DNA of 64,000 nucleotides from Halosolutus amylolyticus (GTDB taxonomy: Archaea > Halobacteriota > Halobacteria > Halobacteriales > Natrialbaceae), in assembly GCF_023566055.1 (NCBI RefSeq), contig NZ_JALIQP010000002.1, forward strand, positions 124,001-188,000, written 5' to 3'. The first letter of the stretch is position 1. The number at the start of each line of letters is the position of its first letter. Below are positions 44,432-47,314 of the stretch, piece by piece. The notes under the pieces were generated by a model. The model did no database searches, was not told the origin of the DNA, and saw only the letters and a list, made by a program, of their open reading frames with translations. The position numbers and the translations under genes were made by a program.

Positions 44432-45595
44432 ATGCGAGACGCTGTCATCGTCGACGCAGTTCGAACACCGTTCGGGGCGCGCGACGGGGCCTTCGCCGGG
44501 GTACACCCGCAGGACCTCGCCGCGGAGCCGTTGCTCGCGCTCGAGGAGCGACTGGGATTCGACCCGCAGCGGACGATCGAGGACGTCATCTACGGCTGCG
44601 TGAGCCCGATCGACGAACAGGGCGGTAACGTCGGGCGGCTCGCCCCGCTGGTCGCCGGCTGGGGCGACGACGTGCCGGGCGTTCAGTTGAACCGGATGTG
44701 TGGCTCCGGCCAGCAGGCGATCAACTTCGCCGCGGGCGCGATCGCGACGGGGGCACACGACGCGATCGTCGCCGGCGGCGTCGAACACATGACCCGCGTC
44801 CCGATGGGGAGCGACCTCGGCGGCGTGACGGAGACCTACTTCGAGCACTACGACGAACTCGTCCAGCAGGGCGAGAGCGCGGAACGGATCGCCGAGCAGT
44901 GGGGGTTCGATCGGCGCGAACTCGACGACCTCGCGGTCGACTCCCAGCGGCGCTGGAAGGCGGCCTGGGACGACGGCCGGTACGAGTCCCAGATCGCCCC
45001 CGTCCGCGTCGGGGCGGAGGGCGAGACGCGCGTCGTCGACACGGACGAACACCCGCGGCCGGAATCGACGGTCGAGGATCTCGGAAGTCTGCCGCTCGCG
45101 TTCCGTCAGGAGGGCGACGGCGTGATCCACGCCGGCAACTCCTCGGGGATCGTCGACGGCGCGAGCGCGGTCCTCGTCACCAGTCGCGAGGCGGCAGAGG
45201 AACACGGCTGGGAGCCGATGGCCCGGATCGTCCAGACCGAGGTGGTCGGCGTCGACCCGGTCACGATGCTCACCGGCCCCATCCCCGCGACCGACGGCGT
45301 CCTCGAGAAGACCGACGTCACGATCGACGACGTCGACCTATTCGAGGTCAACGAGGCGTTCGCCTCGGTCGTCGCGGCGTGGCTCGACGAGATGGACGCA
45401 CCGCGGGAGGACCTCTGGGAGCGGACGAACGTCAACGGCGGTGCGATCGCCCACGGCCACCCGCTCGGCGCGACCGGTTCAGCCCTACTCACGAAACTCG
45501 TCCACGAACTGGAGCGGACCGGCGGGGACGTCGGCCTCTCGACGATGTGTATCGGCTTCGGGCAAGGGATCGCGACGATCGTCGAACGCATCTGA
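44432..45595 (+). CDS. Acetyl-CoA acetyltransferase (thiolase)
   Basis: 387 residues, typical of thiolases. It condenses or cleaves 3-ketoacyl-CoA. The acyl-binding cysteine lies in N-R-M-C-G-S-G-Q-Q, the His in N-G-G-A-I-A-H-G-H-P-L-G-A-T-G and the second Cys in S-T-M-C-I-G-F-G-Q-G. It is 2.7 kb from phaB and could supply acetoacetyl-CoA for PHA or for the mevalonate pathway. A biosynthetic or degradative role cannot be told from sequence. Confidence 0.9.
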   Translation: MRDAVIVDAVRTPFGARDGAFAGVHPQDLAAEPLLALEERLGFDPQRTIEDVIYGCVSPIDEQGGNVGRLAPLVAGWGDDVPGVQLNRMCGSGQQAINFAAGAIATGAHDAIVAGGVEHMTRVPMGSDLGGVTETYFEHYDELVQQGESAERIAEQWGFDRRELDDLAVDSQRRWKAAWDDGRYESQIAPVRVGAEGETRVVDTDEHPRPESTVEDLGSLPLAFRQEGDGVIHAGNSSGIVDGASAVLVTSREAAEEHGWEPMARIVQTEVVGVDPVTMLTGPIPATDGVLEKTDVTIDDVDLFEVNEAFASVVAAWLDEMDAPREDLWERTNVNGGAIAHGHPLGATGSALLTKLVHELERTGGDVGLSTMCIGFGQGIATIVERI

Positions 45596-45662
45596 GGGGC
45601 CATCTATCGCGTTCCGAGACGACGTTTTCAGCACCGATCGCGAGTAGTTCGCAGGACCCGCA

Positions 45663-45930
45663 AACACCACGAAAGCCCCTGGCGGCTCCGGTCGATGGAC
45701 TCGCTGTGCGCTTCGCTCACTTCGTTCGCTGTAGTGCTTGCGTCGTCCGTCTTCCCGGAGCCGCCAGCCCCTTTCATTCCCCCCCGTGACGGCTGGTCGG
45801 ACAGGCCACCGCGGGTGGGAATGAAAGGGGCTGACCCGATCGATCCTTCCCAGGCGAAGTAAGCACCGAACGAAGTGAGGCGCGCAGCGAGCCTCGGGAG
45901 GTCGATCGGGTCAGGGGCTTTCGTGGTGTT
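45663..45930. repeat. 268-bp multi-arm inverted-repeat element
   Basis: The ends are a perfect 19-bp inverted repeat, AACACCACGAAAGCCCCTG (45663-45681) and its complement at 45912-45930. Three further perfect arms tile the inside: 13 bp (45679-45691 with 45755-45767), 17 bp (45765-45781 with 45817-45833) and 12 bp (45832-45843 with 45902-45913). The loops of arms one and three share a complementary 13-mer (CTCACTTCGTTCG at 45716-45728, its complement at 45867-45879). There is no ORF. The whole can fold as a cloverleaf. Confidence 0.85.
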
Positions 45931-45973
45931 CGTAAGCAATTCAAGACTGACCTGCCCTATCCGATCGCGAGTA

Positions 45974-47194
45974 TCAGTTCACGCCGAGTTGATCGGCGAT
46001 CGTGTTCAACTGGATCTCGTCGGTGCCCTCGACGATCCGGAGGATCCGGGCCATGAGCAGGTGGTCGACGTAGGGGTTCTCCTCCGCGAGGCCGCTGCTG
46101 CCGTGGACCTGGACGACGTCGTCGGCGACGTCCCAGCAGACGTTCGTCGCGAACCACTTGGCGATCGACGCCGCTTCGATCGCGGATCCGGTTCGCTCGA
46201 GGTCCCACGCGGCGCGCAGGCCCGCCGCGTCGGCCGCGTACGATCGCGCCCGGCCGCGGGCGAGTTTGTGCGAGATGCCCTGGAAGGAGCCGATCGAGCG
46301 GCCGAACGCCTCGCGCTGGTTGGCGTACTCGACCCCGCGATCGAGCAGGTGTTCGGCGAAGCCGACTGCCTCGGCTGCCAGTTCCAGCCGACCCAGCGAG
46401 AGGAACTCCATGGCGGTGTAGAAGGCGGCGTCGACCTCGCCGAGGACGCGATCGGCGGGGAGGCGCACGTCGTCGAAGACGAGTTCGGCCTGCATCCCCT
46501 CCATCCCAACCGCGTTGTTGATCGCGCCCAACTCGTACTCGTCGGCCTCGACGAGGAAGCAGGTGATGCCGCCGTACCGGCCCGCCTCGGACTGGGGCAT
46601 CGTCCGGGCGAACACCTGCACGAAGTCCGCGTAGGGGGCGTTGGTGATCCACTGCTTGCGCCCGTTCAGGACCCACTCGTCGCCATCGCGTTCGGCCGAC
46701 GTGTCCATATCCGGCGCGTCAGACCCCACGCCGGGTTCGGTCAGCGCGAACGCGGTCGACTTCTCGCCGGCGATCGCCGGTTCCAGGTAGCGATCGACCT
46801 GATCCCCCTCGGCGTCCGCGAGCAGGGGTTTCGGCCCCTCCGGGCCGGCGAGGACGAACTCGGTGAGTCCCGTGCCGTGGCTGGCGACGTGGCGCTTGGC
46901 GCGGTACCACGTCACGGTCGAGACGCCCTCGCCGCCGACCTCCTCGGGGAGGTTCATCGCGTAGAACCCCGCGTCGGCGCTCCGTCTACGGATCCGATCG
47001 ATCGCGTCGACCACCTCCTCGACGTAGCGCCCGTCCGGCCGGTGGCGGAGCCGGGGGTTCGACCACGTCTCGCCCAGTTCCGACTCGATCGGGTCGACCT
47101 CCCGGGCGACGAACTCGTCGAGGCTGTCGAGTACGAGTCGCGTCTCCTCGTCGACGCCGAAGCTGACGCCGGACACCTGGTCCTGTGTCACCAT
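45974..47194 (-). CDS. Acyl-CoA dehydrogenase
   Basis: 406 residues from ATG 47192-47194 (MVTQDQVSGVSF); earlier in-frame starts extend into the promoter. FAD enzyme introducing a trans-2 double bond in acyl-CoA, first step of beta-oxidation. F-A-L-T-E-P-G-V-G-S-D binds acyl-CoA and FAD, W-I-T-N-A-P-Y is the beta-sheet core, and R-I-V-E-G-T-D-E-I-Q holds the FAD partner and base region. Q-V-H-G-S-S-G-L-A-E closes the site. Its product could feed PhaJ. Leftward, alone. Confidence 0.93.
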   Translation of the reverse strand: MVTQDQVSGVSFGVDEETRLVLDSLDEFVAREVDPIESELGETWSNPRLRHRPDGRYVEEVVDAIDRIRRRSADAGFYAMNLPEEVGGEGVSTVTWYRAKRHVASHGTGLTEFVLAGPEGPKPLLADAEGDQVDRYLEPAIAGEKSTAFALTEPGVGSDAPDMDTSAERDGDEWVLNGRKQWITNAPYADFVQVFARTMPQSEAGRYGGITCFLVEADEYELGAINNAVGMEGMQAELVFDDVRLPADRVLGEVDAAFYTAMEFLSLGRLELAAEAVGFAEHLLDRGVEYANQREAFGRSIGSFQGISHKLARGRARSYAADAAGLRAAWDLERTGSAIEAASIAKWFATNVCWDVADDVVQVHGSSGLAEENPYVDHLLMARILRIVEGTDEIQLNTIADQLGVN

Positions 47195-47314
47195 ACCACG
47201 GTGAACCCCCGGATCGCGCATCAATCCACCGGTCGGACGGGGCTCGGAAACGCGACCGGCTACCGAAACCGGTTCACTAACTGTTAACACACACCACCAC
47301 GAACGTCATCGGGT

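Follow-up and report, generated by a model that had tools for sequence, protein, structure and literature searches.

The 268-bp element analysed here, from a 64,000-nucleotide stretch of Halosolutus amylolyticus DNA (the window), probably belongs to a family of dispersed palindromic repeats, mobile but non-autonomous, that extends over a whole order. It is composed of two head-to-head modules of about 120 nt, separated by a 29-bp spacer (Table 1), and it sits where a thiolase gene converges with an acyl-CoA dehydrogenase gene, between the two stop codons; its non-coding nature and its position, already reported in a preliminary description, agree with the gene calls. The family is found in most of the haloarchaea examined, with up to about 97 copies per genome and strong covariation, and it offers a clear way to test how repeats devoid of genes move when no transposase is recognisable, and whether the shape of a mobile element can be maintained by selection acting on one folded strand; in addition, the in-place inversion of a DNA that forms a four-way junction represents a natural assay for archaeal junction processing.

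Table 1. Features of the element and of its surroundings, in window coordinates.
Feature	Position	Strand	Details
Whole composite element	45663..45930	.	268 bp; ends match where inter-copy similarity stops
Left terminal inverted repeat	45663..45681	+	AACACCACGAAAGCCCCTG
Right terminal inverted repeat	45912..45930	-	
Module A, structured, ~120 nt	45663..45784	-	covariance model R1, 121.7 bits
Module B	45814..45930	+	covariance model R1, 116.4 bits
Asymmetric spacer, 29 bp	45785..45813	.	inner palindrome GGCTGGTCGGACAGGCC; orientation reports inversions
Arm 1 (module A hairpin)	45680..45766	-	stem 45680-45691 / 45755-45766
Central arm	45767..45831	.	GCCCCTTTCATTCCC / GGGAATGAAAGGGGC flanking spacer; stem 45767-45781 / 45817-45831
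Arm 3 (module B hairpin)	45832..45913	+	stem 45832-45843 / 45902-45913
Thiolase gene, flanking	44432..45595	+	Thiolase_N, Thiolase_C
Acyl-CoA dehydrogenase gene, flanking	45974..47290	-	start codon uncertain
13-bp direct repeat, copy 1	45634..45646	+	CCGATCGCGAGTA; 16 bp outside element's left end
13-bp direct repeat, copy 2	45961..45973	+	30 bp outside element's right end

The terminal inverted repeats pair perfectly over 19 bp, as first described, and they enclose three hairpins that abut without unpaired bases between them. The stem of arm 1 has 12 perfect pairs, or 13 counting one junction base, that of the central arm has 15, or 17 counting two junction bases, followed by one C.T mismatch and 4 further pairs, and that of arm 3 has 12 pairs; the arm lengths originally given (13, 17 and 12 bp) are right, with the qualification that one or two junction bases are common to the arms and the terminal stem, in a four-way junction able to branch-migrate. 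A single 500-bp bin, the one containing the element, accounts for 20 of the 27 exact 12-mer inverted-repeat pairs of the window (span up to 300 bp), and the comparison of its folding with shuffles gave z values of -9.2 as DNA and -10.0 as RNA, which no shuffle equalled, in line with the early judgement that this geometry is unlikely by chance.

The covariance model has exactly two matches in the window, namely modules A and B. The module is asymmetric: it starts with GGGYGGGAMTGAAAGGGGC, followed by a variable arm, by the conserved core GACGYAAGCAC ... GCGCAGCGAG, by the complementary arm, by GGGGCTTTC and finally by a terminal segment; its start GGTGGGAATGAAAG (in the window, for instance, 45814-45827) may resemble the way in which CRISPR repeats of haloarchaea end on the 3' side. 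The arms differ among copies yet remain paired. When two modules lie within 1 kb of each other, the arrangement is head to head in 65 of 66 cases, and the spacer most often measures 28-30 bp. The complementary 13-mers in the loops of arms one and three (45716-45728 and 45867-45879) are real, but the cloverleaf with kissing loops is a by-product: the 13-mer is the conserved core of the module read in both orientations, and the two loops are complementary because the element consists of two inverted copies of one asymmetric module. In the potassium-rich cytoplasm of haloarchaea, a G-quadruplex might additionally form at the G-rich junction, which comprises GGGYGGGA and an internal loop GGG/GGG; this is a speculation that starts from sequence conservation. 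Longer forms (L063, L236, L237 and L112) have a spacer of 234-310 bp between head-to-head modules; this spacer contains extra hairpins but no gene that is clear. The modules of L328, L329, L338, L339 and L265 have small perfect hairpins nested within them (e.g., GGAGAGCTTCGCTCTCC and GCGAGACGTGAAGCGTCTCGC), which look as if palindromes grew by the insertion of further palindromes.

Compensatory changes strongly support the structured nature of the element, one of the readings put forward at the outset. In a sequence-based alignment of 40 modules, double changes that keep the pair occur in 22 of the 30 predicted pairs; the covariation score was 0.49 and 0.55 in the model-aligned sets (99 and 61 sequences, respectively), which lean towards the covariance model, versus 0.13 when shuffled and about 0.05 when slid. 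The outer stem GAAAG/CTTTC is also doubly substituted, from G-C to C-G, in eight sequences. A gapless, model-free count of the main arm gave 1787 Watson-Crick pairs out of 1992, together with 88 G.U and 29 A.C; for the whole structure, with similar sequences thinned, G.U was 177 versus 48 A.C; the excess was seen at 21 pairs and the opposite at 6. Single modules (71 to 16) showed the asymmetry more clearly than composites did (49 to 22). The prevalence of G.U indicates that the constraint acts on one folded strand, the sense strand of the module; this working strand could be either RNA or folded single-stranded DNA, since both would fit the excess.

The same prevalence bears on the proposal that the element is a neutral palindrome, the pairing of its arms being kept by template switching (quasi-palindrome correction), with one arm copied onto the other. 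Arm correction is strand-symmetric and thus does not predict more G.U than A.C, and it explains neither the dispersal nor the presence of a conserved unpaired core across an order. Although nested perfect mini-hairpins, truncated hairpins and inverted cores inside copies, as well as a similar hairpin in opposite arms of the sister-species elements L015 and L055, are consistent with such copying, a purely neutral origin appears improbable.

The DNA search revealed more partial and full copies of the element in its own genome, and the relatives carry many copies, frequently matched on both strands. The covariance model matched 90 of 119 related genomes and, in a phylum-wide sample, 48 of 295, every one of them in the same order as the host; among the 80 matches listed for the 5' motif of the module, the named genomes are all Halobacteria. 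Fuller scoring gave 12 copies in the own genome, 40 in G002, 97 in G103 and 14 in G342, numbers that vary with how many candidates are scored, and the terminal-repeat pattern had 6, 51, 16 and 16 matches in four genomes (51 in G002), the reversed control having 0 in each. An accident of local duplication, which had been linked to a single-copy element devoid of compensatory changes in its arms, is at odds with the 12 own-genome copies and with the double changes. No Rfam 15 family reaches its gathering threshold, with only weak sub-threshold matches to microRNA families, and no description of the repeat family was found in the open-access literature, where matches to the motif letters concerned unrelated papers only; the family appears to be uncatalogued, as far as Rfam and the open-access literature searched are concerned.

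In the loci studied, which are a convenience sample from the search matches with neighbouring genes predicted by a simple codon model, the copies are intergenic and occur in divergent, tandem and convergent gaps alike. This distribution, and the fact that the sister species G001 manages without the element, make it highly improbable that the element acts in cis on transcripts, as a terminator or mRNA stabiliser between convergent genes, which the location of the window copy would suggest. A role connected to convergent genes or 3'-UTRs was also considered and discarded, as no orientation bias relative to genes was seen.

In G001 the thiolase/acyl-CoA dehydrogenase junction is present with a short gap and without the element; alone, this empty site fits a gain in the window genome or a loss in G001, which it cannot separate. 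Taken together with the multiple copies and with very similar copies at unrelated sites, it supports the miniature mobile element of the preliminary description. The modules of L017 and L218, within one genome, are 92.6% alike and have unrelated flanks, and the single-module copies of G103, about 385 bp long, have modules 97-98% alike, with a similarity that ends about 150 bp upstream and about 190-220 bp downstream of the module start; in the own family of the window element, few copies that occupy unrelated sites of the same genome are very similar.

Copies also lose their arms. Twenty of the G002 sites, read individually, form a graded series, which goes from 68-bp armless stems to one-arm forms, to full forms and to forms with nested extra hairpins. 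The “empty” arms mostly retain 1-3 stem bases, so that deletion by slippage fits better; the idea that each hairpin is a cassette transposing on its own within a GGGGC frame was rejected on account of the same leftover bases. At the nucS-endA junction the module is kept in one orientation across several genera, with hairpins that are replaced, shortened or absent, a long residence that need not be expected of a purely selfish element. The hairpins at this junction differ by genus (L247, L250, L252, L268, L269 and relatives); L248 lacks its hairpin, a clean absence that leaves GAAAGGGGCTTTC.

Retention at nucS-endA across genera would also suit a multi-copy structured non-coding RNA, expressed from the sense strand, with dispersal as a secondary event. 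The strong covariation, the conserved internal loops of the module (GACGYAAG / GCAGCGA) and the large excess of G.U over A.C are in keeping with such an RNA, as is the single-module form of G103, in which a conserved T-rich stretch follows the module inside the ~385-bp block. However, tolerance of G.T is expected of folded single-stranded DNA too, the orientation relative to neighbouring genes is not fixed, and both presence/absence and arm loss are common; moreover, the 28-30-bp spacer of the composites is too small for two promoters, no conserved promoter-like block is visible upstream of single modules, and Rfam gave no match at gathering thresholds. Overall, an RNA function as the primary role of the module is considered unlikely, and the reading as a dispersed mobile repeat is preferred.

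The composites of this mobile family can also invert in place. Three orthologous composites (L022/L051, L019/L056 and L062/L066) are turned around with respect to the flanking DNA and the sister copy; no such turn is seen in L065/L066, the closest pair. In the case of L062/L066, the near flank could be aligned clearly on the right side only, and both far flanks agreed in a separate comparison. In L022/L051 the inside is reversed and the outermost repeat bases beside the right flank have kept their place, suggesting that the exchange occurred within the terminal repeats. A replication or recombination site, another of the initial suggestions, found no direct support, even though the element inverts.

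Of the marks of mobility sought from the beginning, multiple copies and an empty site were found; a general target-site duplication was not, as direct repeats near the ends are no more frequent than in offset and inverted controls, against which a seeming excess near composites also vanished. The exceptions are an exact 9-bp duplication at L018, which may be a remnant or chance, and the 13-bp repeat that brackets the element analysed here, which may be an insertion footprint, a remnant or chance.

Among the genes beside the copies no transposase family is enriched, IS605 genes included; an associated gene was likewise dismissed, because the neighbour families shared most widely, each at 7 loci, are ordinary syntenic genes and one plasmid-like gene of unassigned family. 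No long form with a transposase was seen among the copies, and the 89 terminal-repeat matches in four genomes include no obvious gene-sized pair. The Y1 transposase is absent from three copy-rich genomes (G002, G023 and G103), on which ground a REP/RAYT system was rejected, and no module is found at the five TnpB and three Y1 loci examined; a TnpB-associated guide RNA was set aside on the basis of the former. The 96 G103 copies listed have no replication polarity (54 plus, 42 minus, permutation p 0.82).

Two other features recur near modules. A gene of unassigned family encoding about 285 aa (MSSNNSSSKVVTVDEQ...), without a Pfam hit in the one member tested, has a module about 0.4-1.2 kb upstream in seven loci (L041, L053, L058, L070, L079, L080 and L101), two of which are on contig C7 of the own genome. 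In other families, single modules are preceded upstream by a second conserved block with GGYTGGGGAGG and GCGAGGGAYG, which can also stand by itself (L063, L115, L276, L282, L025, L032, L024 and L223-L229; no Rfam match), for instance downstream of a thiolase in L276 and L282; it looks like another dispersed structured repeat.

According to the proposed mechanism, one strand of the asymmetric ~120-nt module folds as a long hairpin with interruptions, and two head-to-head modules with their ~29-bp spacer constitute a composite that can be extruded as a four-way junction, made of the terminal stem and three arms. A recombinase or transposase supplied in trans may recognise the folded strand and the terminal repeats, allowing the spread of the element; later recombination inside the terminal repeats would flip the interior, and slippage between the GGGGC repeats found at the hairpin base would remove single hairpins. 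More tentatively, spread could depend on the element's own structured strand, which might be an RNA that is reverse-copied to DNA, as in SINEs, or serves as a guide in an RNA-guided process, or else a folded DNA strand read by a recombinase; such a dependence is considered unlikely.

On the basis of their description, the small mobile repeats (SMRs) of Haloquadratum walsbyi can be read as the closest known relatives in kind. SMR-A and SMR-B have terminal inverted repeats, no tie to known transposons and no target duplication, and their mobilisation is enigmatic; SMR-A, of about 110 bp, is inserted mainly into IS605-type elements and PATEs (PMC3119063). The element shares with them the haloarchaeal host, tens of copies, terminal inverted repeats, the absence of target duplication and of genes, and a length too short for a transposase; unlike the SMRs, known here by description, it is about 268 bp long, lies between genes, extends over an order and consists of two inverted structured modules that show compensatory changes. 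Its relation to known transposons was checked through the neighbouring genes and the terminal-repeat pattern search.

As with MITEs, including MITEHsal and ISH2, the element is short, non-coding, multi-copy and dispersed, and has terminal inverted repeats; however, it lacks the fixed-length target duplication of MITEs and, compared with MITEHsal and ISH2, no parent transposon was found among the neighbouring genes and the terminal-repeat matches, the multi-arm fold is conserved and single-module forms without terminal repeats exist. REPs and REPINs (RAYT, TnpA-REP) are similarly intergenic palindromes arranged head to head, for which a specific folded strand appears to matter, but the units of REPs are of 20-40 bp (PMC3733652), against the ~120 nt of the module. 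PATEs and IS605-type ends are also palindromic, gene-less and without target duplication; PATEs, unlike the element, have no terminal inverted repeats, and the TnpB and Y1 loci examined are devoid of modules, while the replication strand bias of IS200/IS605-type single-strand elements is not seen in the G103 copies. The element, not a proven MITE or SMR, is filed as a variant among the non-autonomous dispersed palindromic repeats.
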